DNA of 64,000 nt from Nitrosococcus wardiae (GTDB lineage: Bacteria; Pseudomonadota; Gammaproteobacteria; Nitrosococcales; Nitrosococcaceae). Position numbers and translations under genes: made by a program. Under the pieces are notes generated by a model. The model saw nothing but the letters and a program-made list of their open reading frames with translations, was not told where the DNA came from and ran no database searches. Positions 16,418-34,129 of the stretch are shown here, in pieces. Numbering within the stretch: position 1 is the first letter of the stretch; each line of letters opens with the position of its first letter. Location: NCBI RefSeq assembly GCF_004421105.1, contig NZ_CP038033.1, positions 2,561,659-2,625,658 on the forward strand, read 5' to 3'.

Positions 16418-16462
16418 CATCTCGGGATGAATCTCTGGGTCGGTTTTGCCTAATTATTAAAT

Positions 16463-16481: not shown

Positions 16482-16518
16482 ACTATCATTAAATTTATGA
16501 TTAATTTAGAGGTATGTA

Positions 16519-16722: not shown

Positions 16723-16762
16723 GTGGCATAAGTGTTTGTATTGACATTATGAGGAGGAAGTT

Positions 16763-19700
16763 ATGAGTCAGTCCCTGTCGCTAGTAGCCACCGATAATCA
16801 CCATGGGGGGTATCCGCTGTCGGCGGCGCAGCGGCAGTTGTGGTTTTTTGCTCAACTGGAGCCTGAAAGTTGTGCTTATAACCTTGGTGGGTGGCTTTGG
16901 CTCGAAGGCGAACTGGATCGGGCAGCACTGACCCAGGCCTTAAACGAGCTGGTAGAGCGGCATGAGATGCTACGGGCCTGTTTTCGCGATCACCAGGGGG
17001 AACCCCTGCAGATGATTATGCCCATGGCGCCGTTTGCCCTTGGCTATGAAGATCTGAGCACTCTTTCTAAACCTGAGACGGTGGCTAAAGAGCGCGGCCG
17101 AGAGCTTCTTCTGCGGCCCTATGATCTAAATGGAGGGGAGGTGTTTCGTCATCGCCTCTACTGCTTAGGGTCAAAGCGCCATATGTTGGTCTTGGGATTC
17201 CATCATATCGTGTTCGATGCCTGGTCGTTTGGTGTGTTTATGGGGGAATTAATGTCATGCTATGAGAGCAGCACTACCCACAAACCGCTCAAGCTACCGC
17301 GTCTACGACAGCACTATGTGGATTACAGCCTAGGACAACAACAATGGTTGCAAGGTGAGCAGGCGGCGGATCAGCTGGCTTATTGGCAGACACGCTTAGG
17401 GCAACATCACAGGCTATTGAATTTGCCCATGCAACGGCTCTCAGGGAGCGTGCAGAGGGCTGAGCATTATCTTATGCCGGTAGAGGGGGACCTGACTAAG
17501 CGCCTGGATAAGCTGTCCAGGCAGGTAGGGGTAAGTCGTTTTACGGTGTTGCTGGCGGTTTTACAGCTTTTGCTGGCGCGGTTGTCCGGACAGGAGGAGG
17601 TGCGTGTCGGCGTCCCCAGTGCTAATCGCTCTGCGGATACGGCAAAGATTGTCGGTTTCTTGGTCAATAACTGGGTGGTGGCGGGGCGGCCCTTGCCTTC
17701 ACTCTCTGTGAGTCAGTGGATTCAGCAGGTTAAAAGTCACCTGACTGAGGCGCGGCAGAATGGCCGGTTGCCCTTTGAAACCTTGGTCGAAGCCCTGGCG
17801 CCGGAACGTCATCCAGGTCTGCATCCATTGTTTCAAGTGGCCTTCAATTACCGTCAGCAGGGTGGCCAGCAGAGCTGGTCTGCCGGGGGGCTGGACGCTC
17901 GTTTTGAAGAAATGATGGCGGTTGAAACGCCCTTTAGCCTGGTGCTGGATGTGGCGCCAATTCTGGATGAAGGCTTGACTCTGCGGTTTATTGCCGGACA
18001 AGGGGTGTTTAGCGATCCCTTCATGGAACAGTTGACCGAGGGGTATCTTCGGCTGCTTGAACAGTGTGCCGAGCGACCCAATGCTACCTTGGCGACGTTA
18101 GATATGTTAACAGCCTCCAGCCGTCAGCAACTTCTGTTGTGGTCTGTGGGGAGTGAGGCATATGCGCGTGGGGTGACGTTAGCGGAATTAATTTCGGCGC
18201 AAGCGGTGCGGGCTCCGGAGGCGGAAGCGTTGGTCAGTGGAGAGGAGCGGGTCAGCTACGGCGAGCTGGAGGCGAGGAGCGCGCGGCTGGGGCGCTGGTT
18301 GCGTGCGCAAGGAGTGGGCGCGGAGACGGTAGTGGGGGTGCTGTTAGAGCGTGGTGTGGGGATGATCGCCAGCTTTTTAGGGATACTCAAAGCGGGGGGA
18401 GCGTTTTTACCGCTGGACCCGGACTATCCCGAAGAGCGGCTGGGGTACATGCTCCGAGACAGCGGAGTGGAATTGCTGCTGAGCGAGAGCGGCCTGGCGG
18501 GTCGGCTGCCGGCGGTGGCCGGGCTGCGGGTGGTAGCGTTGGACCGGCTGGACTACGGGGCAGAGGAAGCTGGGGAGTTAGCCGTTCCCGTGCATCCGCA
18601 GCAACTGGCCTATGTGATTTACACCTCCGGGTCCACGGGACAGCCCAAAGGGGTGGGGGTCACCCACGGGGGGCTGAGCATGCACGTGCAAAGCATTGGG
18701 GAGCGCTACGGCATGGGTCCGGAAGATGTGGAGTTGCACTTTGCCTCCATCAGTTTTGACGGAGCGGTGGAGCGTTGGGCGGTGCCGCTGGCCTTTGGCA
18801 GCCGGCTGGTGATACGGGAGCAAGGGTTATGGAGTGCGGAGCGGACCTGCCAGGTATTAGAAGAAGAAGGGGTGAGCATTGCCTGTTTTCCCCCGAGCTA
18901 CGTGGGGCCCTTACTGGATTGGATTGAGCACCGCCGCCCGCCGCTCAAGGTGCGCTCCTGGACGTTGGGGGGAGAGGCGTTTACGCGGGAGCTCTATGAG
19001 CGGCTGCAGCGGGTGCTCAAGCCGCGGCGGATACTCAACGGCTACGGGCCGACGGAGACAGTGGTCACGCCGCTGCTGTGGGAAGCCGATAGGGGCACGC
19101 CGATGAGCAGCGCCTATGCGCCCATTGGCACGGCGGTTGGTGCGCGGCGGCTATACGTGCTGGACGGAGACTTAAACCGGGTGCCGCCGGGGGTCAGTGG
19201 CGAGCTTTACATTGGCGGTGAAGTGGGTTTAGCGCGGGGGTATTGGGGTCGAGCGGGGCAGACGGCGGAGCGGTTTTTACCGGACCGGTGGGGGGTGCCG
19301 GGAGAGCGGATGTACCGCACGGGGGACTGGGTGCGGTGGCGAGCAGACGGGGTGGTGGAGTATTTAGGCCGGGTGGACGGCCAAGTCAAGCTCCGTGGTT
19401 TTCGCATAGAGCTGGGAGAGATTGAGACGCGGCTATTGGCCTTAGCGCCGGTGCGGGAAGCGGTGGTGGTGATGCGCCCGGGGCCGGGAGGCGAGCGGTT
19501 GGTGGGGTATGTGGCGGCGCCGGCGGAAGTTGAGGGAGAGCGGTTACGGGCGGCGTTAGCGGCGCAGTTGCCCGAGTATATGGTGCCGAGCCAGGTGGTG
19601 AGATTAGAGGCGTTGCCGCTGACCCCGGCGGGGAAGGTGGACCGGGAGGGGTTGCCGGAGCCGCAGTGGTCAGCCGAGGGCTATGAGCCGCCGCGGACCG

Positions 19701-22700
19701 AGGCTGAGAGGATGTTGGCCCAGGTGTGGGGGCAGTTGCTGGGGGTGGAGCGGGTCGGACGCCAGGACCGCTTCTTTGAACTGGGGGGGGATTCCATTAT
19801 TGCCTTGCAGGTGGTCAGCCGGGCCCGTCAGGCGGGTTGGTCGCTTCGTCCCCGGGACTTGTTCGAGCAGCCCACCCTAACTGCCCTGGCCGCCGTGGCC
19901 GAAACCACAACAACGACAATGATAGAGCAGGCGCCTTTGATGGGTGAGGTTGAAATGACCCCTATCCAGGCGCGCTTTCTGGAGCGGGAGGGGGCGGCAA
20001 TCTGCAATCAGTATTTTTGGTTTCAGCTGGATGCGCCCTCAAACCCGGAAGATCTCCAGGCGGCGTTGCAAGCGTTGTGCGCTCATCATGATGTGTTGCG
20101 TTCCCGTTTCTACCGCCATAAGGGTCAGTGGCATCAAATCTTTCAGGCCCCTGAGAAGATTAAATCGGAACTGTTGTGGGTAAGAGAAGCACAGACAAAG
20201 ACTGAGATCCAAAGGTTTGCCGCATCGGCACAGCAGAGCCTGGATATTGAATCCGGGGAGCTGTTGCGCGCCCTGTATATCAGTAGCCCCGGTCAGCCGG
20301 ATCGGCTGCTGTTGTGTATTCACCATCTGGCTGTGGATGGAGTCTCCTGGCGTATTTTGCTGGAGGATTTGTTGTTGGCTTATCGGCAATCCGCCGCTGG
20401 TCAGCCGATCCATCTGCCTGCCAAAACACACAGTCTTCGCGATTGGACAGGGGCGCTGGCGGCGTGGGCCCAGGATGAGGCACAGGCGCAACAGGCCTTT
20501 TGGCAAGCAATGACTGCAGATGTCCCTCCCCTCTGGGATATGAACCAACAACCCACCGAGGCGCAGACACTGCGCTTGGTTATCCCTGCCGAGATGACGC
20601 GACGGGCCATGCAGGTCGCGCAGACCCATCTGCGAAGCAACCTGGACGATCTATTGGTGATGACTCTAGCCCGAGTTTTGGCACAACATAGTGGTCAATC
20701 TGCTGTGCGCATATATCGAGAAGGCCATGGCCGGGATCTCAGCTTCAGCGGCTTGGATCTGAGCCGAACAGTGGGTTGGTTTACCAGCCTTTATCCCCTG
20801 CTTTTGAGGGTGCCCACGGCTCGGGAGGAAGCGCTTAAAGGGCTCAAAGAACAGCTCCATGCGGTTCACAATCAAGGCTTGGCCTTTGGGGCCTTATCCC
20901 ATTGGAGTGATTGGGCGCCGGCAAACCATCGTATTGAGGTGCTGTTTAACTATCTGGGGCAGTTGCAGTGGGATGGCCAGGGGACGTTGTCATTTTTGAG
21001 CGCAGGGCTCTGGCGGTCGCCAGGAAGTAGGCGAGATGCTCCCTTGGTGATCAATGCCCACCAGCAGGAGGGGGAACTGATAATGGCGCTGGAATTCAGT
21101 CCTCTCCATTTTGAGCCTTCCTTGCAGCAGGCGCTGATGGCCGCTTTTGAAGTAGAGCTGAAGGCCCTGATAGATTGTTGTGAGCAGCATGGACCTTGGT
21201 TGACACCGTCCGATGTCCCCCTGTCTGGCCTCGATCAGGAAGCCTTGGATCAGCTGTCGAATTTGGAGCTTGAAAATGTTCTGCCCCTCTCACCCTTGCA
21301 GCAGGGCTTGCTATTTCATAGCGAATTAAGTCAACAAACCGATACCTATGTCAACCAGCTAAGCTTGCCCCTGTCAGGCTTGGATTCCGCTCGTTTGGAG
21401 CAGGCCTGGCAGCGCCTGGTACAGCGTCATTCCGTATTGAGAAGCGCTCTGCTGGCTGGTGAGGGGAAACTCGATCAACCCCTGCTAGGGGTGTGGCAAT
21501 CGATAGCACTCCCCTGGAGCCAGCAGGATCTGCGTGGAGAGGAAGATGCGGCCCAGGCTATGGAGAGGGTTCGGACCGAGCGCCGGCAGCAGGGGTTCAA
21601 TTTGTATCGCCCTCCTTTGTGGCATGTGGATCTGTTGCAAACGGGGGACGAGGATTATCACTGCGTGCTGACCTTGCATCATTTACTCATGGATGGTTGG
21701 AGCACCGCTATCCTGCTGCAGGAGTTGCTGCAATTGTATCATGGCCAGACGCTCCTGCCTGAGCCGCCTCCATTCAGCGCCTTTCTGCAATGGTTGGCGG
21801 ATAGGGATCAAATGCGTGCGCGGGCCTTCTGGCAAGATTACCTATCAGCTATCACTTCACCTACTTGGCTAGCCTCCAGTATGGGGCAGATTTCAGAAGC
21901 AAAGGATTTCCGTCGCCATTCCGTGATCTTTGATTCCAAGCTGCAGCAACATCTCCAGGATCAGGCTCGCCAGCAGGGCGTTACCTTGAGTACTCTGATG
22001 CAGGGGGCTTGGGCGCTGATATTGTCCCGTTATACCGGCCAGCAGCAGGTGGTCTTCGGCAATACCGTTGCCGGACGGCCGCCTGAGCTGCCCGGCAGCG
22101 AGCGTATGTTGGGGCTCTTTATTAATACCTTGCCGGTAGCTGTCAAGATACCTGCCGCTGAGCCTTGCGGGCGTTGGCTATTGGCGCTACAGCAGGCTGG
22201 CTTGGATGCTCGGGAGCATGGCCACCTGCCCCTGTTTGAAATACAGCAGGCTGCTGGTTGTGCCGGTGAGGGGCTGTTCGATACCCTGATGGTATTTGAG
22301 AACTACCCTCTGGATGACAACCTGCTTAACAGTAAGGCTGATGGATTGACCATTGGTGCTCCGGATAGCTACGAGTTTACCCATTATCCTCTGACGCTGG
22401 CGGTATTGCCGGGCACCGAGCTGCAGGTGGTGTTTGCCTATAATGCGGCGGTGTTGCCGCCAAGGGTGATAGCACCGCTGGCGGATGCCTTCAAGCAAGT
22501 ATTAATGGCGTTGGCTACACAGCCCGAGGCGCCGCTGGCCTCTATTGCAAGCATTACCCCGGAGCAAAGCCATCGTCTTCTATTGTGGTCTGTGGGGAGT
22601 GAGGCATATGCGCGTGGGGTGACGTTAGCGGAATTAATTTCGGCGCAAGCGGTGCGGGCTCCGGAGGCGGAAGCGTTGGTCAGTGGAGAGGAGCGGGTCA

Positions 22701-25700
22701 GCTACGGCGAGCTGGAGGCGAGGAGCGCGCGGCTGGGGCGCTGGTTGCGTGCGCAAGGAGTGGGCGCGGAGACGGTAGTGGGGGTGCTGTTAGAGCGTGG
22801 TGTGGGGATGATCGCCAGCTTTTTAGGGATACTCAAAGCGGGGGGAGCGTTTTTACCGCTGGACCCGGACTATCCCGAAGAGCGGCTGGGGTACATGCTC
22901 CGAGACAGCGGAGTGGAATTGCTGCTGAGCGAGAGCGGCCTGGCGGGTCGGCTGCCGGCGGTGGCCGGGCTGCGGGTGGTAGCGTTGGACCGGCTGGACT
23001 ACGGGGCAGAGGAAGCTGGGGAGTTAGCCGTTCCCGTGCATCCGCAGCAACTGGCCTATGTGATTTACACCTCCGGGTCCACGGGACAGCCCAAAGGGGT
23101 GGGGGTCACCCACGGGGGGCTGAGCATGCACGTGCAAAGCATTGGGGAGCGCTACGGCATGGGTCCGGAAGATGTGGAGTTGCACTTTGCCTCCATCAGT
23201 TTTGACGGAGCGGTGGAGCGTTGGGCGGTGCCGCTGGCCTTTGGCAGCCGGCTGGTGATACGGGAGCAAGGGTTATGGAGTGCGGAGCGGACCTGCCAGG
23301 TATTAGAAGAAGAAGGGGTGAGCATTGCCTGTTTTCCCCCGAGCTACGTGGGGCCCTTACTGGATTGGATTGAGCACCGCCGCCCGCCGCTCAAGGTGCG
23401 CTCCTGGACGTTGGGGGGAGAGGCGTTTACGCGGGAGCTCTATGAGCGGCTGCAGCGGGTGCTCAAGCCGCGGCGGATACTCAACGGCTACGGGCCGACG
23501 GAGACAGTGGTCACGCCGCTGCTGTGGGAAGCCGATAGGGGCACGCCGATGAGCAGCGCCTATGCGCCCATTGGCACGGCGGTTGGTGCGCGGCGGCTAT
23601 ACGTGCTGGACGGAGACTTAAACCGGGTGCCGCCGGGGGTCAGTGGCGAGCTTTACATTGGCGGTGAAGTGGGTTTAGCGCGGGGGTATTGGGGTCGAGC
23701 GGGGCAGACGGCGGAGCGGTTTTTACCGGACCGGTGGGGGGTGCCGGGAGAGCGGATGTACCGCACGGGGGACTGGGTGCGGTGGCGAGCAGACGGGGTG
23801 GTGGAGTATTTAGGCCGGGTGGACGGCCAAGTCAAGCTCCGTGGTTTTCGCATAGAGCTGGGAGAGATTGAGACGCGGCTATTGGCCTTAGCGCCGGTGC
23901 GGGAAGCGGTGGTGGTGATGCGCCCGGGGCCGGGAGGCGAGCGGTTGGTGGGGTATGTGGCGGCGCCGGCGGAAGTTGAGGGAGAGCGGTTACGGGCGGC
24001 GTTAGCGGCGCAGTTGCCCGAGTATATGGTGCCGAGCCAGGTGGTGAGATTAGAGGCGTTGCCGCTGACCCCGGCGGGGAAGGTGGACCGGGAGGGGTTG
24101 CCGGAGCCGCAGTGGTCAGCCGAGGGCTATGAGCCGCCGCGGACCGAGGCTGAGAGGATGTTGGCCCAGGTGTGGGGGCAGTTGCTGGGGGTGGAGCGGG
24201 TCGGACGCCAGGACCGCTTCTTTGAACTGGGGGGGCACTCTCTGCTGGCAATGCAGGCAGTGAGCCTGTTACGCCGGGACTATCAAAAGCAGTTACCGTT
24301 GCAGGTATTGTTTGACTCTCCTCGGTTGGCCGATTGTGCGGCGCGCCTGATCGATGCCGTTGATGAGGATGAAATCATTGTGGCCGCGCCCAGGGACCAA
24401 GATCTGCCCACCTCATCTGCTCAACGCCGTCTTTGGTTTGTGCAGCAACTCAATCCTGAAAGTGGGGCCTACCATTTGCCGCTCGGATTAAGATTGCAAG
24501 GGACGCTGGATTTGACTGCGCTGCAAGCAGCGCTGAATCATTTGGTCGAACAGCACGAAATATTGCGCACCCGTTTTGTGGAGCATAATGGTGAGCCGCG
24601 GCAGCGAATTCTCCCCGAAGCGCCACTCAAATTAGACTATATTGATTTACGGGAACAGTCACAGCCCCAGGACAGAGCGGCGGAGCTGTTCCAGGAATGG
24701 TTAAGGCAGCCCTTTGATCTGGCCAGAGATCCCTTGCTGCGTTTGGGTGTGGTCCGGCTGGATGAGCATTGCTACCAATTGTTGCTGGTGCAGCATCACA
24801 TTATCACCGACGGCCGGTCAACCGCCCATTTCCTCGAATCCCTGATCAATGTATATGGGGCCATTATGGCCGGGGAGCTGCTATTGGAAGCTCCGCCGCG
24901 GCTGCAATACGCCGATTATGCCATTTGGCAACAGCGCTGGTTGCAAGGTAAAAAGGCGCAGCAACAACTGGATTATTGGCGCCAAGCTCTGGGAACGGAT
25001 ACAGAGCCCCTGGAGCTTCCCACCGACTATCCCCGGAGCAGGACAACTCCTCCCCAGGGGGCGCGTTACCATTTTCGCTTGAGCACAGTCCAGGCTCAAG
25101 GATTGCGGCAACTGGCAAGAGCCCATGAGACGACCCTTTTTACCCCGCTTCTGAGTTTGTGGTTACTGCTCTTGTCTCGTTACAGCGGCCGGCGGGATAT
25201 TCGGGTTGGCATTCCTGTAGCAGGGCGAATCCGCCCTGAAACTGAAACCATGCTAGGTTGCTTTATCAATACCGTGGTGCTAGGGGTTCAGATCGACCCG
25301 AATAGTTCCTTTGCTGCGTTGATGGAGCAGGTCAAGCAGCGCTCGGCTGAGGCCCAAAGCCATCAGGAGTTGCCCTTTGAAGCTCTGGTGGAGGCCCTGG
25401 GAGTAGGGCACAGCCTGGAATATCATCCCCTATTTCAGGTGGCCTTTAATCATCAGCAAATGATTACAGAGGCATTGGCGGAATGGCCCCAGGGGAGCAT
25501 TACTCCCTTTGATCCTGGTGCCGCCGGGGTTCAGTTTGACCTGGCTATGGATACGGAACTGCAGGGTGACGGCAGTATCCACGGTTACCTCAGCTATGCC
25601 AGCCAGTTGTTTCACAAGGCCACCATTGAGCGTTTGTGGGGACATTATTCGAACCTGCTGGATGCCGTATTAAACAATGGGAGTGGGCCTGTGGCCAATT

Positions 25701-27589
25701 TGCCGCTACTGAGCCAAACCGAGCAGCAGCAGTTGGGACATTGGAATGATAGCGGTGTCGCGCGAGATCCGTTTGTGCCCATACCCATTAGGCAGAGCCG
25801 GCAGGCAATGCAAACCCCTGAGGCCGTTGCTTTGAGTTTTAATGGTCGGCAATTGAGCTATGGCGAACTGGAACGCCGGGTTAATCAACTGGCCCACCGG
25901 TTGCAGCGCGCCGGTATAGGCCCTGAGGTTCGGGTTGCTATCAGCCTGCACCGCTCCGTGGAACTGGTGGTGGGTATTCTGGCGATCACCCGGGCCGGGG
26001 GGGCCTATGTGCCCCTGGATCCCAGTTACCCTGAGGAACGCTTGCGCTACATTTTGGCGGCGGCGGAGCCGGCGCTGGTGTTGACGCAGAGCACCCTGGC
26101 TTTGACTGGGTTGGAGGATACCGGTTGCCCTTGCTGGTCTCTAGATGATCTGGATTGCGGTGATGAGCCTACCTACCCGCCGATGGTCGATTGGCATCCA
26201 GATCAGGCCTTCTATGTGATTTACACCTCCGGGTCCACGGGGCGTCCCAAGGGAGTGGTCAATACCCACGCCGCCCTGGAAAACCGCTTGCTGTGGATGC
26301 AGGAGCAATATCTGCTGGGCGGCGATGATTGTGTTTTGCAGAAAACGCCTTTCAGCTTTGACGTATCGGTCTGGGAGTTCTTCTGGCCCTTCATGGTAGG
26401 CGCCCGTTTGGCGGTGGCGCCGCCGGAGGCGCACCGTGATCCAGTCGCATTGCAGCGGGTGATTGAGTCTGAGCAGGTGACGACGTTGCACTTCGTGCCA
26501 TCCATGCTGCAGGCCTTTATCGCGGCCACCCATCTGGTGGGTTGCGCTTCCCTTAGAAAGGTGATTTGCAGCGGCGAAGCTCTAAGCATGGATCTGCAGC
26601 AGCAGGTATTACAGGCAAGGCCGAAATTACAGCTGCACAACCTCTATGGGCCTACAGAAGCTGCGATTGATGTCAGTTACTGGCAATGTCAAGCGGATAA
26701 CCGGCCTACGGTGCCCATTGGAATGCCCATCAGCAATATTCAATTGCACGTGCTGGATGCGCAGTTAAATCCGGTGCCCATAGGAATACCCGGTGAACTG
26801 TATCTAGCGGGTGTGGGGCTGGCCAGGGGGTATTTTGGCCGTGCCGATCTCACCGCCGAGCGGTTTCTGCCCAACCCCTTTGGCGCTCCCGGTAGCCGCA
26901 TGTATCGCACCGGCGACAAAGTCAAGCGGGGAGCAGATGGCGTGCTGGAGTACCTGGGGCGGTTGGATCACCAAGTCAAAATTCGTGGGCTGCGCATCGA
27001 ATTGGGTGAGATTGAAAGCCTGCTGCGCCAGCAACCGTTCGTGTCGGATGCCCTCGTGATTGCCCAGCCCCACAGCATTGGAGATCAACTGGTGGCCTAT
27101 GTCATTTTGGATGGAATGCCGGCAGAGGATTGGCGGGAACAGCTAAAAGCAGCCTTGTCAGCCCAGCTGCCGGATTACATGGTGCCGGCGCTCTTTATGT
27201 CCCTGGATGGGTTTCCCATTTCGCCAAATGGCAAGCTGGATCGTAAGGCATTGCCAGCACCGGAGTGGCAAAGTAAGGGGTATCGCGCACCGCAAACTCC
27301 ATTGCAGCAGCAGTTGGCCGAGTGCTGGCGATGTTTGTTAAAGCAGCCCCGCATTGGGTTGGATGACAACTTTTTCGCCCTCGGCGGACATTCTTTGCTG
27401 GCGGTTCGCGCCGTGGCACAAGTTCGTGAGCAACTGGACCTGGAGATTTCTCTACGGCAATTTTTCCAATGTGAGAGCCTGGAGGCACTGGCCAATCAGC
27501 TGGAATATAAATCCATGGCGGGTGAAGAGGAGGAACGGAACGAGTTGGATGCCATGGCTGCTCTGCTGAATGAATTGGGGGAACTATGA
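16763..27589 (+). CDS. Three-module nonribosomal peptide synthetase (C-A-T-E / C-A-T / C-A-T)
   Basis: Giant protein of 3608 residues. Module 1: C (about 15-440; motif HHIVFDAW, with Ala in place of the usual Gly), A (about 460-960), carrier with GGDS (Ser1011), E (about 1060-1490; HHLAVDG, EGHGR, RTVGWFTS). Module 2: C of the D-accepting type (about 1502-1930; HHLLMDG), A (about 1940-2430), carrier GGHS (Ser2493). Module 3: C (about 2546-2985; HHIITDG), A (about 2990-3510), carrier GGHS (Ser3544). Aligning specificity positions by eye, A3 reads DVWHISLIDK, the serine code. A1 and A2 are identical and read DGECTGGVTK, with Glu at the third position as expected for a basic, ornithine- or lysine-like side chain. 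GAGGAGG precedes the start. It ends in an acidic helical tail (possible docking) and overlaps the next synthetase by ATGA. Confidence 0.95.
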   Translation: MSQSLSLVATDNHHGGYPLSAAQRQLWFFAQLEPESCAYNLGGWLWLEGELDRAALTQALNELVERHEMLRACFRDHQGEPLQMIMPMAPFALGYEDLSTLSKPETVAKERGRELLLRPYDLNGGEVFRHRLYCLGSKRHMLVLGFHHIVFDAWSFGVFMGELMSCYESSTTHKPLKLPRLRQHYVDYSLGQQQWLQGEQAADQLAYWQTRLGQHHRLLNLPMQRLSGSVQRAEHYLMPVEGDLTKRLDKLSRQVGVSRFTVLLAVLQLLLARLSGQEEVRVGVPSANRSADTAKIVGFLVNNWVVAGRPLPSLSVSQWIQQVKSHLTEARQNGRLPFETLVEALAPERHPGLHPLFQVAFNYRQQGGQQSWSAGGLDARFEEMMAVETPFSLVLDVAPILDEGLTLRFIAGQGVFSDPFMEQLTEGYLRLLEQCAERPNATLATLDMLTASSRQQLLLWSVGSEAYARGVTLAELISAQAVRAPEAEALVSGEERVSYGELEARSARLGRWLRAQGVGAETVVGVLLERGVGMIASFLGILKAGGAFLPLDPDYPEERLGYMLRDSGVELLLSESGLAGRLPAVAGLRVVALDRLDYGAEEAGELAVPVHPQQLAYVIYTSGSTGQPKGVGVTHGGLSMHVQSIGERYGMGPEDVELHFASISFDGAVERWAVPLAFGSRLVIREQGLWSAERTCQVLEEEGVSIACFPPSYVGPLLDWIEHRRPPLKVRSWTLGGEAFTRELYERLQRVLKPRRILNGYGPTETVVTPLLWEADRGTPMSSAYAPIGTAVGARRLYVLDGDLNRVPPGVSGELYIGGEVGLARGYWGRAGQTAERFLPDRWGVPGERMYRTGDWVRWRADGVVEYLGRVDGQVKLRGFRIELGEIETRLLALAPVREAVVVMRPGPGGERLVGYVAAPAEVEGERLRAALAAQLPEYMVPSQVVRLEALPLTPAGKVDREGLPEPQWSAEGYEPPRTEAERMLAQVWGQLLGVERVGRQDRFFELGGDSIIALQVVSRARQAGWSLRPRDLFEQPTLTALAAVAETTTTTMIEQAPLMGEVEMTPIQARFLEREGAAICNQYFWFQLDAPSNPEDLQAALQALCAHHDVLRSRFYRHKGQWHQIFQAPEKIKSELLWVREAQTKTEIQRFAASAQQSLDIESGELLRALYISSPGQPDRLLLCIHHLAVDGVSWRILLEDLLLAYRQSAAGQPIHLPAKTHSLRDWTGALAAWAQDEAQAQQAFWQAMTADVPPLWDMNQQPTEAQTLRLVIPAEMTRRAMQVAQTHLRSNLDDLLVMTLARVLAQHSGQSAVRIYREGHGRDLSFSGLDLSRTVGWFTSLYPLLLRVPTAREEALKGLKEQLHAVHNQGLAFGALSHWSDWAPANHRIEVLFNYLGQLQWDGQGTLSFLSAGLWRSPGSRRDAPLVINAHQQEGELIMALEFSPLHFEPSLQQALMAAFEVELKALIDCCEQHGPWLTPSDVPLSGLDQEALDQLSNLELENVLPLSPLQQGLLFHSELSQQTDTYVNQLSLPLSGLDSARLEQAWQRLVQRHSVLRSALLAGEGKLDQPLLGVWQSIALPWSQQDLRGEEDAAQAMERVRTERRQQGFNLYRPPLWHVDLLQTGDEDYHCVLTLHHLLMDGWSTAILLQELLQLYHGQTLLPEPPPFSAFLQWLADRDQMRARAFWQDYLSAITSPTWLASSMGQISEAKDFRRHSVIFDSKLQQHLQDQARQQGVTLSTLMQGAWALILSRYTGQQQVVFGNTVAGRPPELPGSERMLGLFINTLPVAVKIPAAEPCGRWLLALQQAGLDAREHGHLPLFEIQQAAGCAGEGLFDTLMVFENYPLDDNLLNSKADGLTIGAPDSYEFTHYPLTLAVLPGTELQVVFAYNAAVLPPRVIAPLADAFKQVLMALATQPEAPLASIASITPEQSHRLLLWSVGSEAYARGVTLAELISAQAVRAPEAEALVSGEERVSYGELEARSARLGRWLRAQGVGAETVVGVLLERGVGMIASFLGILKAGGAFLPLDPDYPEERLGYMLRDSGVELLLSESGLAGRLPAVAGLRVVALDRLDYGAEEAGELAVPVHPQQLAYVIYTSGSTGQPKGVGVTHGGLSMHVQSIGERYGMGPEDVELHFASISFDGAVERWAVPLAFGSRLVIREQGLWSAERTCQVLEEEGVSIACFPPSYVGPLLDWIEHRRPPLKVRSWTLGGEAFTRELYERLQRVLKPRRILNGYGPTETVVTPLLWEADRGTPMSSAYAPIGTAVGARRLYVLDGDLNRVPPGVSGELYIGGEVGLARGYWGRAGQTAERFLPDRWGVPGERMYRTGDWVRWRADGVVEYLGRVDGQVKLRGFRIELGEIETRLLALAPVREAVVVMRPGPGGERLVGYVAAPAEVEGERLRAALAAQLPEYMVPSQVVRLEALPLTPAGKVDREGLPEPQWSAEGYEPPRTEAERMLAQVWGQLLGVERVGRQDRFFELGGHSLLAMQAVSLLRRDYQKQLPLQVLFDSPRLADCAARLIDAVDEDEIIVAAPRDQDLPTSSAQRRLWFVQQLNPESGAYHLPLGLRLQGTLDLTALQAALNHLVEQHEILRTRFVEHNGEPRQRILPEAPLKLDYIDLREQSQPQDRAAELFQEWLRQPFDLARDPLLRLGVVRLDEHCYQLLLVQHHIITDGRSTAHFLESLINVYGAIMAGELLLEAPPRLQYADYAIWQQRWLQGKKAQQQLDYWRQALGTDTEPLELPTDYPRSRTTPPQGARYHFRLSTVQAQGLRQLARAHETTLFTPLLSLWLLLLSRYSGRRDIRVGIPVAGRIRPETETMLGCFINTVVLGVQIDPNSSFAALMEQVKQRSAEAQSHQELPFEALVEALGVGHSLEYHPLFQVAFNHQQMITEALAEWPQGSITPFDPGAAGVQFDLAMDTELQGDGSIHGYLSYASQLFHKATIERLWGHYSNLLDAVLNNGSGPVANLPLLSQTEQQQLGHWNDSGVARDPFVPIPIRQSRQAMQTPEAVALSFNGRQLSYGELERRVNQLAHRLQRAGIGPEVRVAISLHRSVELVVGILAITRAGGAYVPLDPSYPEERLRYILAAAEPALVLTQSTLALTGLEDTGCPCWSLDDLDCGDEPTYPPMVDWHPDQAFYVIYTSGSTGRPKGVVNTHAALENRLLWMQEQYLLGGDDCVLQKTPFSFDVSVWEFFWPFMVGARLAVAPPEAHRDPVALQRVIESEQVTTLHFVPSMLQAFIAATHLVGCASLRKVICSGEALSMDLQQQVLQARPKLQLHNLYGPTEAAIDVSYWQCQADNRPTVPIGMPISNIQLHVLDAQLNPVPIGIPGELYLAGVGLARGYFGRADLTAERFLPNPFGAPGSRMYRTGDKVKRGADGVLEYLGRLDHQVKIRGLRIELGEIESLLRQQPFVSDALVIAQPHSIGDQLVAYVILDGMPAEDWREQLKAALSAQLPDYMVPALFMSLDGFPISPNGKLDRKALPAPEWQSKGYRAPQTPLQQQLAECWRCLLKQPRIGLDDNFFALGGHSLLAVRAVAQVREQLDLEISLRQFFQCESLEALANQLEYKSMAGEEEERNELDAMAALLNELGEL
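18137..19899 (+). repeat. Adenylation/carrier repeat, copy 1
   Basis: Positions 18137-19789 recur at 22583-24235 (shift 4446), and 18148-19899 recur at 29067-30818 (shift 10919). I found only one differing base inside the second match (18226 A versus G at 29145) in the parts compared, and the translations are identical. The block covers nearly all of the A domain and the start of the carrier domain. Copies 1 and 3 share the GGDS carrier used before an E domain, so their match continues about 110 bases further than the match with copy 2. Confidence 0.95.
20291..20374 (+). repeat. 84-bp exact match shared by the two epimerization domains
   Basis: The segment encoding the E-domain active-site motif (around HHLAVDGVSW) is identical at the DNA level to 31216-31299 (shift 10925), while flanking E-domain sequence has diverged. 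This is a short conversion tract, separate from the A-domain repeat because the shift differs by 6 bases. Confidence 0.85.
22556..24235 (+). repeat. Adenylation/carrier repeat, copy 2
   Basis: This is the copy in module 2. It shares 22556-22576 with the sequence before copy 3 (29029 onward) but not with copy 1, so its left border lies in the C-A linker. It ends at 24235, within the run of G that encodes the two glycines of the carrier motif. From there it continues as GGHS instead of GGDS. Confidence 0.95.
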
Positions 27590-30500
27590 GTTTGGATAAG
27601 CAGGCGCTGGCCCAGCGTTTTCTAGCCTTAGGTGACGCTGAGCAAGAGCGTTTTTTAGCTGTGCTGCGGGAAAAAAGTCTCCGTTTCGATCGCTTGCCTA
27701 TCGTCAAAGGAAAAAGAGGCAATCGGGCACCGTTGGCGCCGGCCCAGCGCCGATTATGGTTGGTGCACCAGATGGAGCCTGACAACAGCGCCTATCACAT
27801 GGTAGGCGCATTTGAACTTAGCGGGGTGGTACAGAGTGAAGCACTGCGCGGTGCACTGACGGATATTCAACGCCGTCATGAAGTGCTGCGTACCCGTTTT
27901 GTTGAGATTGACGGTGAGCTCTGGCAGGTGATTGACCAGCATCCGCCCCTGGCGCTTACCGAACAGGACATGACTGACGCAGACAGCAGTACCATTCAGC
28001 ATCTGGCGGATGATCATGCCCGGGCTGGGTTTGACCTGAGCCGTGGGCCCCTACTGCGAATTCAACTACTCCGGTTGACACCGCAGCGTTGGCGTCTGCA
28101 GGTGGTGATGCACCATATTATTGCCGATGGCTGGTCTATTGGTATCTTTTTCAAGGAATTGGAACAGGCTTGGCGGAACCGCCAAGCCGGCAACACCGAA
28201 GGGTTGCCAGCGCTGGCAGTGCAGTATGCGGATTATGCCATCTGGCAGCGGGCCTGGTTGAATGCCGGTGAGCGGGAACGCCAACTGACCTATTGGCATG
28301 ATCAGTTGGAGCCGGGACAACCGCCCTTGTTGCTGCCCTATGACACGCCGGTGGCTGACAGTGATCTCCGTCAGGCTTCCGCGGAGCAGTTAAGCTTGCC
28401 GGTGTCATTGGTCACAGCATTGCGCATGTTGGCGCGGGAGTGCGATGCTACCTTGTTTACCGTATTGCTGGCTGCCTGGCAGTGGGCGCTGGCGGTACAA
28501 AGCGGACGTCGTGATATTCCGGTGGGCGTGCCTGTAGCCAACCGGAACCGGCCCGAAATTGCGCCCCTGATCGGTTTTTTTGTCAATACCTTGGTGTTGC
28601 GTGGCCAGCCGGACCCGGCTGCATCCGTGCGCGACTGGGTGAGGCAACTGCACGCCCGGGTGCTGGATGCTCAGGATCACCAAGCGCTGCCTTTTGATCA
28701 GCTGGTGGAGGCTATTGCTCCCCGGCGGAAACCGGGAGAAACCCCGTTGTTTCAGGTTTTGTTCAATTACCAGCAGCGAGATGCCCAGGCCTTTGAAGTA
28801 TTGCCGGGCGTGACTCTGCGGCCCTTATCCCAAGGTGTGCCTCATGCCCTTTTTGATCTGGCGCTGGATGCGGACGAGCAGGCCGATGGTCAGGTAAGTC
28901 TTACCCTGACCTACGCCGCGGACCGCTTCAAAGTGGATACCATCTCGCGTTTGCTAAGTATGCTTAAACAAGCCTTGATGGGCTTCACTCAAGAGGCACC
29001 GCGACCTCTCGGTAGCCTAGAATTGCTGACCCCGGAGCAAAGCCATCGTCTTCTGTTGTGGTCTGGGGGGAGTGAGGCATATGCGCGTGGGGTGACGTTA
29101 GCGGAATTAATTTCGGCGCAAGCGGTGCGGGCTCCGGAGGCGGAGGCGTTGGTCAGTGGAGAGGAGCGGGTCAGCTACGGCGAGCTGGAGGCGAGGAGCG
29201 CGCGGCTGGGGCGCTGGTTGCGTGCGCAAGGAGTGGGCGCGGAGACGGTAGTGGGGGTGCTGTTAGAGCGTGGTGTGGGGATGATCGCCAGCTTTTTAGG
29301 GATACTCAAAGCGGGGGGAGCGTTTTTACCGCTGGACCCGGACTATCCCGAAGAGCGGCTGGGGTACATGCTCCGAGACAGCGGAGTGGAATTGCTGCTG
29401 AGCGAGAGCGGCCTGGCGGGTCGGCTGCCGGCGGTGGCCGGGCTGCGGGTGGTAGCGTTGGACCGGCTGGACTACGGGGCAGAGGAAGCTGGGGAGTTAG
29501 CCGTTCCCGTGCATCCGCAGCAACTGGCCTATGTGATTTACACCTCCGGGTCCACGGGACAGCCCAAAGGGGTGGGGGTCACCCACGGGGGGCTGAGCAT
29601 GCACGTGCAAAGCATTGGGGAGCGCTACGGCATGGGTCCGGAAGATGTGGAGTTGCACTTTGCCTCCATCAGTTTTGACGGAGCGGTGGAGCGTTGGGCG
29701 GTGCCGCTGGCCTTTGGCAGCCGGCTGGTGATACGGGAGCAAGGGTTATGGAGTGCGGAGCGGACCTGCCAGGTATTAGAAGAAGAAGGGGTGAGCATTG
29801 CCTGTTTTCCCCCGAGCTACGTGGGGCCCTTACTGGATTGGATTGAGCACCGCCGCCCGCCGCTCAAGGTGCGCTCCTGGACGTTGGGGGGAGAGGCGTT
29901 TACGCGGGAGCTCTATGAGCGGCTGCAGCGGGTGCTCAAGCCGCGGCGGATACTCAACGGCTACGGGCCGACGGAGACAGTGGTCACGCCGCTGCTGTGG
30001 GAAGCCGATAGGGGCACGCCGATGAGCAGCGCCTATGCGCCCATTGGCACGGCGGTTGGTGCGCGGCGGCTATACGTGCTGGACGGAGACTTAAACCGGG
30101 TGCCGCCGGGGGTCAGTGGCGAGCTTTACATTGGCGGTGAAGTGGGTTTAGCGCGGGGGTATTGGGGTCGAGCGGGGCAGACGGCGGAGCGGTTTTTACC
30201 GGACCGGTGGGGGGTGCCGGGAGAGCGGATGTACCGCACGGGGGACTGGGTGCGGTGGCGAGCAGACGGGGTGGTGGAGTATTTAGGCCGGGTGGACGGC
30301 CAAGTCAAGCTCCGTGGTTTTCGCATAGAGCTGGGAGAGATTGAGACGCGGCTATTGGCCTTAGCGCCGGTGCGGGAAGCGGTGGTGGTGATGCGCCCGG
30401 GGCCGGGAGGCGAGCGGTTGGTGGGGTATGTGGCGGCGCCGGCGGAAGTTGAGGGAGAGCGGTTACGGGCGGCGTTAGCGGCGCAGTTGCCCGAGTATAT

Positions 30501-32967
30501 GGTGCCGAGCCAGGTGGTGAGATTAGAGGCGTTGCCGCTGACCCCGGCGGGGAAGGTGGACCGGGAGGGGTTGCCGGAGCCGCAGTGGTCAGCCGAGGGC
30601 TATGAGCCGCCGCGGACCGAGGCTGAGAGGATGTTGGCCCAGGTGTGGGGGCAGTTGCTGGGGGTGGAGCGGGTCGGACGCCAGGACCGCTTCTTTGAAC
30701 TGGGGGGGGATTCCATTATTGCCTTGCAGGTGGTCAGCCGGGCCCGTCAGGCGGGTTGGTCGCTTCGTCCCCGGGACTTGTTCGAGCAGCCCACCCTAAC
30801 TGCCCTGGCCGCCGTGGCGCAGCCGGCTAAGGCCAGTGATGCGGTCCAGGAGACTCTGGTTGGTCCGCTACCTTTGATGCCGATTCAATCCCATTTCTTT
30901 GAGCTGCAGCCACCTGTTCCCTCACATTGGAATCAACATGTGTGGTTAGGGCTGAAGGTGTCCCTAGACATGACGGCATTATCGGCGGCATTGCAAGCCT
31001 TGAGGCGGCATCATGATGCCTTGCGTTTGCATTTTCGACAGCAAGGAGGGCAATGGCAACAGTCATTTGTCGACCCGGCGAAGCTGAACAGCGAGCTCCT
31101 GTGGGTGCGAGCAGCTGAGGGCGAGGAGGAGGTGGAGCGGTGGTGTAACGAAGCCCAGCGCAGCCTCGATATTGAAACTGGAGAACTGCTGCGCGCTTTG
31201 TATGTCAGTAGCCCTGGTCAGCCGGATCGGCTGCTGTTGTGTATTCACCATCTGGCTGTGGATGGAGTCTCCTGGCGTATTTTGCTGGAGGATTTGTTGC
31301 GTGCTTATCAGCAGTACTTGGCTGGGGAGCCCATTGAGCTGCCTGCCAAGACCCATAGCCTGCGCGATTGGTCCCAAGCTCTGTCAGCCTGGGCTAAGAC
31401 TGCACAGGTCGAGTCTCGTTTGCCATTCTGGCAACAGCAATTCACAGCAACAATAAGCTGCCGGACGCCCTTCGCAAAATGTGGTCACTGGACGATGATG
31501 TTGAGCAGGGCCGAGACCCAAACGCTACTTTATCAGGCACCGGCGCAGCTTGATGTAAATGTCCCTGCTTTGCTAGTAACAGCGCTGGTGCAGGTATTGG
31601 CCGATGAGCGGCAGCCGCGAATTGCTGTAAATCTGGAAGGGCATGGGCGTACAGATGATATGGCTCCCTCTCTGGACGTCAGCCGCACTGTGGGCTGGTT
31701 TACCAGCTTTTATCCGGTAGCGCTGGAGTGGCAGTCCGATCTCCAGCGTTGTCTGGCCGGGGTGGCGGAACAGTTGCGCCGTGCTGATCAGGATGGCGGG
31801 ATCAGCTATGGGGCATTGCGTTATCAGGGTCATGAAAGCAGCCGTAGACAACTGGCAGGGGCAGCCGCTGCTCCCGTTACCTTTAATTATTTGGGGCAGT
31901 ACCGTTCCGATGGGCTGGAGCACTGGTTTTCGCCATTGCCTGGCGGCGGTGATCCGCAGGCGCCGGAGAATCCCATGGCGGCACCCCTATCAGTCAATGC
32001 TCAAGTAGTGGCAGGGCAGTTAAGTCTGGACTGGCTGTATAGCCAGGATCATTATGATTCTTTGCAGATCGAGCAACTGGCCCAGCGCTATAAGCAAGTG
32101 CTACTTACCCTGTTGGGAACGCCGGTAAGTAACGCGCCCGCCACGGCTGATCCCCGCTTGCTGGTTCCCTTGGCTGAGGCTTCATTGGAGCAACCGCCAG
32201 TGTTTTGTATTCACCCGGTGACCGGTCGCGTCAATGGCTATCAGTCCCTAGCCATGGGCCTGCAGGGGCATCGAACTCTGATTGGACTGCAATCCCGTAG
32301 TTTTGTGGATACCCTTTGGTTTGACCATAGTCTCAGCCAGATGGCGGACCGCTATGTGGCAACCTTGCGCTACCGGCAACCGGCAGGACCTTACTACTTG
32401 CTGGGCTGGTCATTGGGAGGTGCCTTGGCCATGGAAATAGCCTGCCGGCTTGAACAAGCCGGCGAGGACATCGCTTTTCTGGGCTTGTTAGATAGTTATG
32501 TGCCGGGGTTCGAAATTCCTGAGGATCAGTGGACTTCTCCCCAGGCCCAGCAAAAGTTGGCAGACCATCTACGAATATTGTTACCGAGTGTGGCTGAGGA
32601 GAGCTTACAGCATTGCTTGGCTCAGTTCAGCGAGTCGCAACCACAGCAATGGCCGGAGATCTTCTCGGCTTGGTTATCCACTCAGGGGGTTGATGCTGTG
32701 AGCGCGGAAAATGCCCAGCAACTCCTGTTTTCATGGGCTCTGGAACAGCATTACCGCCGGCTTTGTGACAGTTATATCTTGCCCTCGGTGAGTGCAAAGG
32801 CACACGCCTGGTGGGCGGCTAAGCCGGAAGGTCGAGGCCAGCAGCTTCAGCACGCCTTGCAGGAAAAGGTTCAATTGACCTTCAGTCGTATCGTTGCCGC
32901 AGATCATCTCAGCATTGTCCGGGATGCTGAATGCCTATCAGATCTGCACCGATTACTCCGCATCTAA
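27586..32967 (+). CDS. Terminal nonribosomal peptide synthetase module (C-A-T-E-TE)
   Basis: Protein of 1793 residues. A short helical N-terminus (1-40, possible docking segment) precedes C (about 45-470; HHIIADG), A (about 485-985; same code as A1 and A2), carrier GGDS (Ser1043), E (about 1090-1510; HHLAVDG, EGHGR, RTVGWFTS) and a type I thioesterase (about 1535-1785). The thioesterase has GWSLGG with nucleophile Ser1609, Asp1636 in LLDSY and His1774 in ADHLSIV. It adds the fourth residue to the peptidyl chain of the preceding synthetase, inverts it to D and releases the product. An E domain directly before TE is uncommon. Its ATG overlaps the stop of the first synthetase gene (ATGA), so translation is probably coupled. 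Confidence 0.95.
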   Translation: MSLDKQALAQRFLALGDAEQERFLAVLREKSLRFDRLPIVKGKRGNRAPLAPAQRRLWLVHQMEPDNSAYHMVGAFELSGVVQSEALRGALTDIQRRHEVLRTRFVEIDGELWQVIDQHPPLALTEQDMTDADSSTIQHLADDHARAGFDLSRGPLLRIQLLRLTPQRWRLQVVMHHIIADGWSIGIFFKELEQAWRNRQAGNTEGLPALAVQYADYAIWQRAWLNAGERERQLTYWHDQLEPGQPPLLLPYDTPVADSDLRQASAEQLSLPVSLVTALRMLARECDATLFTVLLAAWQWALAVQSGRRDIPVGVPVANRNRPEIAPLIGFFVNTLVLRGQPDPAASVRDWVRQLHARVLDAQDHQALPFDQLVEAIAPRRKPGETPLFQVLFNYQQRDAQAFEVLPGVTLRPLSQGVPHALFDLALDADEQADGQVSLTLTYAADRFKVDTISRLLSMLKQALMGFTQEAPRPLGSLELLTPEQSHRLLLWSGGSEAYARGVTLAELISAQAVRAPEAEALVSGEERVSYGELEARSARLGRWLRAQGVGAETVVGVLLERGVGMIASFLGILKAGGAFLPLDPDYPEERLGYMLRDSGVELLLSESGLAGRLPAVAGLRVVALDRLDYGAEEAGELAVPVHPQQLAYVIYTSGSTGQPKGVGVTHGGLSMHVQSIGERYGMGPEDVELHFASISFDGAVERWAVPLAFGSRLVIREQGLWSAERTCQVLEEEGVSIACFPPSYVGPLLDWIEHRRPPLKVRSWTLGGEAFTRELYERLQRVLKPRRILNGYGPTETVVTPLLWEADRGTPMSSAYAPIGTAVGARRLYVLDGDLNRVPPGVSGELYIGGEVGLARGYWGRAGQTAERFLPDRWGVPGERMYRTGDWVRWRADGVVEYLGRVDGQVKLRGFRIELGEIETRLLALAPVREAVVVMRPGPGGERLVGYVAAPAEVEGERLRAALAAQLPEYMVPSQVVRLEALPLTPAGKVDREGLPEPQWSAEGYEPPRTEAERMLAQVWGQLLGVERVGRQDRFFELGGDSIIALQVVSRARQAGWSLRPRDLFEQPTLTALAAVAQPAKASDAVQETLVGPLPLMPIQSHFFELQPPVPSHWNQHVWLGLKVSLDMTALSAALQALRRHHDALRLHFRQQGGQWQQSFVDPAKLNSELLWVRAAEGEEEVERWCNEAQRSLDIETGELLRALYVSSPGQPDRLLLCIHHLAVDGVSWRILLEDLLRAYQQYLAGEPIELPAKTHSLRDWSQALSAWAKTAQVESRLPFWQQQFTATISCRTPFAKCGHWTMMLSRAETQTLLYQAPAQLDVNVPALLVTALVQVLADERQPRIAVNLEGHGRTDDMAPSLDVSRTVGWFTSFYPVALEWQSDLQRCLAGVAEQLRRADQDGGISYGALRYQGHESSRRQLAGAAAAPVTFNYLGQYRSDGLEHWFSPLPGGGDPQAPENPMAAPLSVNAQVVAGQLSLDWLYSQDHYDSLQIEQLAQRYKQVLLTLLGTPVSNAPATADPRLLVPLAEASLEQPPVFCIHPVTGRVNGYQSLAMGLQGHRTLIGLQSRSFVDTLWFDHSLSQMADRYVATLRYRQPAGPYYLLGWSLGGALAMEIACRLEQAGEDIAFLGLLDSYVPGFEIPEDQWTSPQAQQKLADHLRILLPSVAEESLQHCLAQFSESQPQQWPEIFSAWLSTQGVDAVSAENAQQLLFSWALEQHYRRLCDSYILPSVSAKAHAWWAAKPEGRGQQLQHALQEKVQLTFSRIVAADHLSIVRDAECLSDLHRLLRI
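29029..30818 (+). repeat. Adenylation/carrier repeat, copy 3
   Basis: This copy lies in the terminal module. It matches copy 2 from 29029 apart from isolated differences (for example 29066 G) and copy 1 from 29067 to 30818. Its right border with copy 1 falls at the end of the carrier domain, just after GCCGTGGC. Confidence 0.95.
31216..31299 (+). repeat. Second copy of the 84-bp E-domain match
   Basis: Exact partner of 20291-20374, covering the HHLAVDG active-site region of the epimerization domain in the terminal module. Confidence 0.85.
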
Positions 32968-33021
32968 AATCAATAAAACTTAGTGGGAAATTTATACATG
33001 CAACTTAAGTTAAATTATTAG

Positions 33022-33040
33022 TTTAATGATTATCATTTTT
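33022..33040 (+). promoter_or_regulatory. Fur-like box before the acyltransferase gene
   Basis: Fourteen of 19 bases match the Fur consensus, with an AATGATTATCATT palindromic core at 33025-33037. It lies in the 127-base gap between the last synthetase and the acyltransferase, and probably controls the tailoring operon downstream. Confidence 0.65.
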
Positions 33041-33094
33041 TTTTATATTAATTTTTGAGAAGTTCTCATATTTTGCCCAGGGTGACCTTACGTT

Positions 33095-34093
33095 ATGGCG
33101 GGTAATAAAGACATTACCGTACCCCTACCTTCGGGGCGGCAGTTGACGGTTGAACAGACCGGTACGGTGCAGCGTTGCTTATTGGAGGGTAGGCAATTAC
33201 TCGGGGTGGAGGCGAATCCCGAGCAGCCCCATAGGCTGCGGGTTTTCAGGACACCAGACAGTCTCAGTGCCCTGCGCTCAGCAAGTTATGCCCTATTTGT
33301 TGGGAATCCCTCCGTAACCGTGCTGGTATTCGATCAGGCAGACGGGGTTTTAATTGATTCTGCCTTGATGTTTTATCACGCTGCCCAGCAATGGCACTTG
33401 TATCGGGATGCACTTTGGCAGTGGCCAGAACTCTGGCTGCAAGGCCAATCTCGCTTGGCGGCACCTACCCTTTATACGATGGGCGCAAATGGCCATTGCC
33501 ATCCGCTTCGGCCAGCTCGGCCAGAAGGGGAGGTGTATCGGCGATTTGATTATCAACTGGGAGCTTGGGTTTCGTTGCGTACTTTGGAGATTAACGAAGA
33601 CTTGGAGCGGTTCCATCGTTGGCAAAACAGTGAGCGGGTGGCTTGTTTCTGGCAGGAGCGGGGCACATTGGAACAGCATCAAGGCTATTTGCAAAGGCTG
33701 TTCGATGATCCCCGGGTGCTCCCCCTGATCGGCTGTATCAATAATGAGTCCTTTGCCTATTTTGAAGCCTATTGGGCGAAAGAAGACCGGATTGCCCCTT
33801 ACTATCAGGCTGATGACTATGATCGGGGGATTCATATGCTGGTAGGAGAAGAAAACCACCGCGGCCCTCATAAAGTGAAGGCTTGGCTAACGGCTTTATG
33901 CCATTACCTTTTTCTAGACGATCCGCGTACTCAGCGTATCGTTTCTGAGCCGCGTTTTGATAATCAAAAAATGATCAGTTATCTGCAAGCACATCGTTTT
34001 GCGAAGATCAAAGAGTTTGAGTTTCCCCATAAACGGGCTTCCTTGATGATATTGACGCGGGAAGCGTTCTTTGATCGCTGTACCTTGGGCTAA
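33095..34093 (+). CDS. IucB/VbsA-type N-hydroxy-amino-acid acyltransferase (GNAT)
   Basis: Protein of 332 residues. The C-terminal half is the siderophore-type GNAT fold: DLERFHRWQNSERVACFW, a catalytic-region block with FAYFEAYWAKEDRIAPYY, then GIHMLVGEENHRGPHK for acyl-CoA binding and RIVSEPRFDN. This family transfers an acyl group, commonly acetyl, from CoA to the hydroxylated side-chain amine of lysine or ornithine to complete a hydroxamate. Beside the ornithine-type monooxygenase it should make N5-acyl-N5-hydroxyornithine. No formyltransferase is present in the window, which argues for acetyl or a similar acyl group rather than formyl. The stop abuts the following open frame. Confidence 0.88.
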   Translation: MAGNKDITVPLPSGRQLTVEQTGTVQRCLLEGRQLLGVEANPEQPHRLRVFRTPDSLSALRSASYALFVGNPSVTVLVFDQADGVLIDSALMFYHAAQQWHLYRDALWQWPELWLQGQSRLAAPTLYTMGANGHCHPLRPARPEGEVYRRFDYQLGAWVSLRTLEINEDLERFHRWQNSERVACFWQERGTLEQHQGYLQRLFDDPRVLPLIGCINNESFAYFEAYWAKEDRIAPYYQADDYDRGIHMLVGEENHRGPHKVKAWLTALCHYLFLDDPRTQRIVSEPRFDNQKMISYLQAHRFAKIKEFEFPHKRASLMILTREAFFDRCTLG

Positions 34094-34129
34094 ATGCCGG
34101 AAAAACCGTTATTCAAAGGAGCAAAGATA

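Follow-up and report, generated by a model that had tools for sequence, protein, structure and literature searches.

Concerted evolution of three adenylation–carrier tracts in a siderophore synthetase of two Nitrosococcus species

In nonribosomal peptide synthetases (NRPSs) and polyketide synthases (PKSs), domains of the same synthetase are closer to each other than to their positional counterparts in relatives, which is ascribed to internal recombination in the consulted part of Medema et al. (2014; PMC4256081); the same part describes siderophore NRPS clusters as 'mixed', with some signs of internal recombination and many domains without high mutual similarity. The repeats termed GRINS are, in the available text of two papers (PMC10394414, PMC9899208), internal repeats of about 1 kb or more that are more than 90% identical, have an intense GC skew and are proposed to convert; they are said there to be rare in PKSs of Pseudomonadota. 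In pyoverdine synthetases, the linker plus the adenylation (A) domain is given as a productive exchange unit with its boundary at the end of the condensation (C) domain (Calcott et al., 2020; PMC7486941, consulted in part), and the two glycines of the FFxxGGxS motif in the thiolation (T) or carrier domain are described as a fusion site for synthetase engineering, XUT-IV (PMC12668312, consulted in part). Here, we describe three near-identical A–T tracts within two overlapping NRPS genes of Nitrosococcus wardiae, which lie in a stretch of 64 000 nucleotides (the window; assembly GCF_004421105.1, contig NZ_CP038033.1, forward-strand positions 2,561,659 to 2,625,658). Concerted evolution of NRPS domains is already established, and the present locus is a strong and very clean new example. 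Positions are those of the window, and domains, including those for epimerization (E) and the thioesterase (TE), are numbered in order along the two genes (Table 1).

Three tracts homogenized in two species

Any two of the window copies differ at one to three of 1659 bases. Copies 1 and 2 have a single mismatch over 18131–19789 (at 18136, followed by an exact run of 1653 bases from 18137), and copies 1 and 3 have two mismatches over the 1769 bases of 18131–19899 (at 18147 and 18226). The near-exact sharing of about 1650 bases and the shifts of 4446 and 10919 that had been reported in a first-pass annotation, made from the sequence alone, were thus confirmed by alignment. A count of silent differences, which that annotation had proposed, gave two silent sites and one replacement (GTG/GGG, Val/Gly at 18147) among the three variable sites of the window. 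In 100-base windows lying wholly outside the tracts identity was 17–49%, the level of unrelated sequences, and similarity dropped to this level a few dozen bases past the tract ends. The copies are direct repeats spaced 4.4, 6.5 and 10.9 kb, all in the same codon phase and spread over the two overlapping genes. A search of the one-contig genome (4,022,640 bases) gave no further full copies; the sole other match was 47 bases at 89% in the neighbouring serine-type A domain. Inverted repeats (arms of at least 16 bases, up to 300 bases apart) were absent from 14000–34000, and the window gave no Rfam match for structured RNA at the gathering score.

The cluster was compared with that of a sister species of the same genus (genome G001, contig of 4.08 Mb), to which it is 92.9% identical in DNA over 22 kb. 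The G001 copies mutually differ at 0–2 of 1659 bases (two variable sites in the 1659-base core, both silent), and any G001 copy differs from any window copy at 123–126 sites (7.4–7.6%). At 122 of the 1659 positions all copies of a genome agree and the two genomes disagree; five positions are variable within one genome and none is variable in both. Lineage-specific changes in the linker (CTTCT against CTCAA) are likewise present in all three copies of each genome. Independent evolution of the copies since the split would have made the differences within a genome about as large as those between the species; the opposite was observed, so that homogenization in each lineage is required. The between-species dS was 0.219–0.222 for the copies and 0.139–0.305 for nine flanking segments; lying within the flank range, the copies look as old per lineage as their surroundings and not recently imported. 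The copies are very probably older than the species split and were homogenized separately in each lineage by gene conversion, not made by recent duplication. Of the two readings offered in the first-pass annotation, continuing gene conversion is upheld and very recent duplication is not, because the sister genome has the same three places and the same ends, homogenized on its own.

The few residual differences were examined site by site. At 18147 window copies 1 and 2 share one state and copy 3 has that of all G001 copies; at offsets 1454 and 1608 in G001 copies 1 and 3 share a state and copy 2 has that of the window. Three of the five residual differences therefore look mid-spread, in that a state differing from the sister genome (by which alone they were polarized) is found in two of three copies. 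These new states are held by different pairs of copies in the two genomes, which a single order of duplication fails to explain and which fits ongoing exchange. The five differences also cluster near the tract ends, at a mean distance of 74 bases from the closer end where 414 would be expected (p = 0.0002, in a test devised post hoc). In a simple equilibrium model, good to the order of magnitude only, replacement of a site by another copy is about 2000 times as frequent as point mutation. With the same three repeats in two species, 122 lineage-marking sites and the flanks as a clock, the locus is a natural experiment in which turnover can be quantified.

The tract ends are shared as well. Upstream, the three-way identity begins in the C–A linker at LLLWS, and copies 2 and 3 share 21 bases more (from 22556 and 29029, respectively). 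On the downstream side, the identity of copies 1 and 2 ends exactly with FFELGG, and copies 1 and 3 remain identical for 110 bases beyond this point. T1 and T4, which precede E domains, read GGDS and T2, which precedes a C domain, reads GGHS; copies 1 and 2 would stop at the glycines because the second half of the T domain differs in type before C and before E. The ends in G001 are those of the window, the one exception being that the identity of copies 1 and 3 is a base shorter.

In trees with other genera, C1–C4, E1, E2 and the serine A domain A3 group by module (support 86–100). Grouping by genome is instead the pattern of the hydroxyornithine A domains: of the eight synthetases with at least two such domains, five show it in full (the window, G001, L017, L018 and L020), L086 and L088 show it for two of their three copies and L087 does not show it; L019 and L021, with one each (L021 over its first 7600 bases only), were excluded from this count. 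Grouping by genome rather than by module, which had been put forward as a check, was accordingly complete in five cases, partial in two and failed in one. In Alcanivorax L017, and in Alcanivorax L018 apart from a C1 cut by the locus end, the C, E and TE domains correspond to those of the window position by position. The neighbouring C and E domains do differ from module to module, as first described, but they are not the diverged leftovers of a recent module duplication, each belonging to its own module-specific lineage common to other genera. Orthologues in which every module keeps its own diverged A domain, a situation that had been named as one that would refute the first description, were absent from the sister species and approached only in the distant family f144.

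Mechanism and rival explanations

The three copies would be old module-internal A–T units of an amphibactin-type synthetase of the order C-A-T-E-C-A-T-C-A(Ser)-T on one protein and C-A-T-E-TE on the other. As the same building block is used in all three modules, A–T DNA could be exchanged without a change of product, presumably neutrally. RecA-type homologous recombination between the direct repeats would copy tracts among them non-reciprocally, and a new mutation in one copy would be either erased or spread to all three. Copying would stop where homology ends. On one side this is in the C–A linker; on the other it is at the glycine pair of the T-domain motif FFxxGGxS, except between copies 1 and 3, which both precede an E domain and would remain homologous for 110 bases further. 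Sites of the Escherichia coli form of Chi gave a mixed outcome for Chi as a driver: the window has six on both strands and none in any copy, and in G001 three of five lie in copies, one in each (7146, 11592 and 18065 of locus L066).

Other explanations of the identity were weighed against the same data. One or two very recent duplications of an A–T segment would account for the near-perfect copies of the window taken alone, but the same insertion points would have to have been hit twice independently to give the same places and ends in a sister species at 7.4–7.6% divergence, and two Alcanivorax and three f144 synthetases have the same A-domain type and pocket in the same three modules; duplication was rejected on the sister-genome evidence, unless the sister assembly is wrong, and was left with next to no probability. 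Purifying selection on the protein, for which the identical pockets and a dN/dS of 0.14–0.16 might be cited, is hardly credible either: each copy has about 83–89 silent differences between the species, nearly all of them common to the three copies of a genome (122 uniform against five variable sites), and protein-level selection was rejected by these silent sites.

Reads from three different copies could have been collapsed or polished to one consensus, since the identical stretch exceeds short-read length and the evidence consists of assemblies. An artefact of this kind is very improbable, because two separate assemblies (contigs of 4.02 and 4.08 Mb) show three copies, some differences are private to one copy or to a pair, the copies end unequally on the right, and the composition of the tracts differs from that of the flanks in both genomes. 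Unequal crossing-over between sister chromosomes, with gain and loss of modules in place of non-reciprocal conversion, is somewhat less remote and was judged improbable: direct repeats in the same codon phase would be expected to allow in-frame loss or gain of a module, but the order Orn-Orn-Ser-Orn (Orn, ornithine) is constant in the window, G001, the two Alcanivorax and the three f144 synthetases, and the C, E and Ser-type A domains between the repeats retain their own lineages.

Several points nevertheless weigh against gene conversion as set out above. Repeated unequal exchange between sister chromosomes, if it restored the number of modules, would look the same as conversion, and the assemblies argue against a collapsed repeat only indirectly. 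The copies of the three f144 synthetases (L086, L087 and L088) are only about 85–90% alike, with partial or no grouping by genome, so that intense homogenization is no property of this synthetase type as such. The tight three-copy case is found in two species only, Motilimonas showing two copies, and intensely homogenized lineages may be exceptional. The intensity of homogenization varies by lineage: the Alcanivorax copies (L017, L018) are 82–89% alike, the two copies of Motilimonas L020 are 99.5% alike on a contig that ends inside both, as in short-read assemblies, and for the f144 copies alignments limited to the unit give 85–90%, while other pairs fall within longer alignments at 78–81% and one pair reaches 91% by another measure. 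In L021 (Alcanivoracaceae metagenome-assembled genome SAT93), 5.9 kb is repeated on the contig at 97.8%; the assembly has probably joined two strains here, a true tandem repeat of a module being the less likely reading.

Base composition of the tracts

A GC content of 66% and a GC skew near 0.3 mark the tracts, compared with 55–58% and 0.03–0.15 in the flanks; in a second calculation the mean skew was 0.31 for every copy and 0.04–0.15 for the flanks. At fourfold-degenerate sites the fraction of G is 0.63–0.66 and that of GC 0.85–0.86, against at most 0.37 and 0.56–0.72 in 26 other open reading frames (ORFs) picked from the 39 of the window, and 0.43 and 0.75 in the unconverted Ser-type domain A3. 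The 110-base T extension of copies 1 and 3 has a GC content of 0.66 against 0.56 in its copy 2 counterpart (0.70 against 0.60 in G001) and is without G skew. A rise over the Ser-type A domain was seen in all three synthetases with copies at least 99% alike (window, G001 and L020) and in none of the five with copies 82–91% alike (level in L017, lower in L018, L086, L087 and L088). The group with copies at least 99% alike also has the lower background GC, so that cause and background are not separated, and the window and G001 count as a single case, seen in both species.

The comparison was extended to a non-random survey of 91 stretches (49 from a scan of genome contigs with this synthetase, 40 hand-picked from matches, the window and G001), 82 of which have at least two A domains, with 355 A domains in total. 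Fourteen stretches hold codons both in repeats at least 93% alike and in repeats below 78%, and two more hold only the former kind. Fourfold GC was higher in the at least 93% repeats in 12 of the 14, as was the absolute skew (10 of 12 each without L021 and G001; the skew comparison is biased upward by pooling), and G alone was higher in ten of the 14. A rank test on stricter terms, in which each locus contributed one cluster and identities of at least 90% were set against those below 75%, gave p = 0.030 for GC and p = 0.046 for skew over 16 loci, omitting G001 as the same case as the window and L021 as a doubtful contig; with both included (18 loci) the values were 0.011 and 0.017, and all four are optimistic as some loci belong to the same genus. 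A correlation between the gain in GC and the background GC was set aside as being to some extent inherent in the measure. The survey thus agrees weakly with a rise in near-identical copies. High-identity A-domain repeats of other synthetases were also found to be strongly skewed, with C in excess in L101 and L121 and G in L038.

GC-biased conversion was rejected as the sole cause of this composition: at fourfold sites G goes up as C goes down, and each of the three mid-spread states is a change towards A/T, for which a plain strand-symmetric bias is insufficient. That the G-rich composition came with a foreign donor of the A–T unit and is unrelated to conversion was given about even odds. The gap between the tracts and the 26 other ORFs and the direction of the mid-spread states, none of them towards G/C, count in favour of a foreign donor; the same rise in Motilimonas, its absence from the five synthetases with less similar copies and the position of the A domains in the tree, next to their counterparts from this synthetase type in other genera, tell against one. 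It is rather unlikely, in our judgement, that sustained conversion itself drives the tracts to high GC and intense strand skew (towards G here and C elsewhere), which would make a GRINS-like skew a by-product and not a cause of conversion. Were this true, it would apply both to actinobacterial PKSs and to NRPSs of Pseudomonadota, and if the composition effect is real the origin of skewed assembly-line repeats becomes a testable question.

Gene cluster and comparison with known systems

The coordinates of the tracts, the synthetase genes and their neighbours are collected in Table 1. Since Pfam scores C and E domains alike as Condensation, the E domains were named from a motif that we take to be theirs and from their separate group in the tree. 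The patch of about 240 bases that is 83% identical between E1 and E2 is present in G001 too and is perhaps an older, smaller conversion. ExbB and TonB were also found around the synthetase by profile searches; judged from its gene content (exporter, acetyltransferase, N-monooxygenase, FhuF, receptor, phosphopantetheinyl transferase, ExbB and TonB), this is a hydroxamate siderophore cluster.

Table 1. Positions of the homogenized tracts, the synthetase genes and neighbouring features in the window.
Feature	Position	Strand	Basis and remarks
Homogenized tract copy 1	18131..19899	+	Later part of C–A linker, A1, T1; 1659 bases in all three copies, 1769 common with copy 3
Homogenized tract copy 2	22577..24235	+	1659 bases; ends at FFELGG of T2, next codon His (GGHS), not Asp (GGDS)
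Homogenized tract copy 3	29050..30818	+	1769 bases common with copy 1
NRPS gene 1, C1-A1-T1-E1-C2-A2-T2-C3-A3-T3	16763..27589	+	ORF, 3608 aa; Pfam: four Condensation-type stretches (C1, E1, C2, C3), three AMP-binding, three PP-binding
NRPS gene 2, C4-A4-T4-E2-TE	27586..32967	+	ORF and Pfam, 1793 aa; 4-base overlap with gene 1
A3 domain	25791..27180	+	Borders approximate; serine-type pocket; outside homogenized set; internal composition control
E1 patch	20228..20469	+	83% identical to E2 patch
E2 patch	31153..31394	+	83% identical to E1 patch
Cyclic-peptide-type ABC exporter	14756..16417	+	NF007813, TIGR01194 above cut-offs
GNAT acetyltransferase (Acetyltransf_8)	33095..34093	+	PF13523; probable N-hydroxyornithine acylase (putative role)
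Ornithine/lysine N-monooxygenase	34094..35431	+	PF13434, E 7e-120
FhuF siderophore-iron reductase	35438..36226	+	TIGR03951 above cut-off
4'-Phosphopantetheinyl transferase	36220..36924	-	PF17837, PF01648 above cut-off
TonB-dependent siderophore receptor	38148..40526	+	TIGR01783 above cut-off; nearest FhuA/FoxA models

Each of the three repeated A domains has the pocket letters DGECTGGVT, and A3 has DVWHISLID; we take these to be the codes of hydroxyornithine domains and of serine, respectively. Nine letters were placed by motif anchors rather than through a reference-structure alignment, and the tenth (K) was appended, not read. The same letters were found in 25 of 25 hydroxyornithine-type A domains of ten synthetases, and ten of ten Ser-type domains are alike; module for module, the pockets agree with those of the two Alcanivorax synthetases, of the three from f144 and of the domains that three incomplete contigs retain. 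The marks of an amphibactin-type synthetase are present, namely the module order Orn-Orn-Ser-Orn, C, E and TE domains orthologous to those of Alcanivorax, presumably an amphibactin maker, and an N-monooxygenase and an acyltransferase in the cluster. The predicted product is amphibactin-like, with three N-acyl-N-hydroxyornithines and one serine linked; the amphibactin head group is given as one serine and three ornithines in the part of PMC6836290 consulted.

The other two genomes of the genus (G002 and G003) gave no synthetase match at E 1e-100. Both have only distant monooxygenase relatives (26–27%); G003 has two receptor relatives at 34–36%, one with an in-frame stop, and G002 has none at E 1e-50. 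An ammonia/methane monooxygenase A-type protein (PF02461) was found in all four genomes of the genus and in none of 14 controls. Elsewhere in the window, an apparently broken gene for a SulP-type sulfate permease (8296–10058, minus strand) lies just upstream of the cluster, split over two overlapping frames (profile parts 1–178 and 194–378), and a P-type cation ATPase at 57868–61149 has a C-terminal LysM domain, to our knowledge an unusual combination.

Among the literature matches listed, no title or abstract dealt with homogenization in this synthetase or genus, subscription papers being largely beyond the reach of the search; an NRPS is known in N. oceani AFC132 (PMC7285500), and repeats are unmentioned in the text of that paper that was examined. 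The nearest name for the tracts is GRINS, with which they share repeats more than 90% identical and a GC skew. The thresholds given in the available GRINS text are at least 500 bases, more than 80–90% identity within the synthetase, and GC skew and TA skew each above 0.15 or 0.25. The tracts have 1659–1769 bases at 99.8–100% and a mean GC skew of 0.31 per copy, but their mean absolute TA skew is 0.08–0.09 (0.11–0.15 in the flanks), for which membership was rejected; they also differ in lying in an NRPS, not a PKS, and in Pseudomonadota. Two hallmarks of concerted evolution were found, A domains that group by genome and silent sites homogenized after speciation. The likeness by genome is that described in the consulted part of Medema et al. 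(PMC4256081); here it is near-complete in the DNA itself, and the silent sites of two sister species demonstrate it. Alcanivorax L017 and L018 have the same module order, pockets and, the cut C1 of L018 excepted, C, E and TE domains by position, but their less similar A copies are without G skew.

With the A-domain exchange units and XUT described in the available parts of PMC7486941 and PMC12668312, the tracts share a unit of A domain plus linker and the glycine site of FFxxGGxS, and the pyoverdine exchange boundary (PMC7486941) lies somewhat upstream of the tract start found here. The simplest reason for a stop at the XUT-IV joint is that homology ends there. The exchange at this locus differs from those systems in taking place between modules for the same substrate, conserving the product, and in having the same boundary in two species; the tract ends mark joints of the synthetase that tolerate exchange, one of which is the joint now used by engineers.
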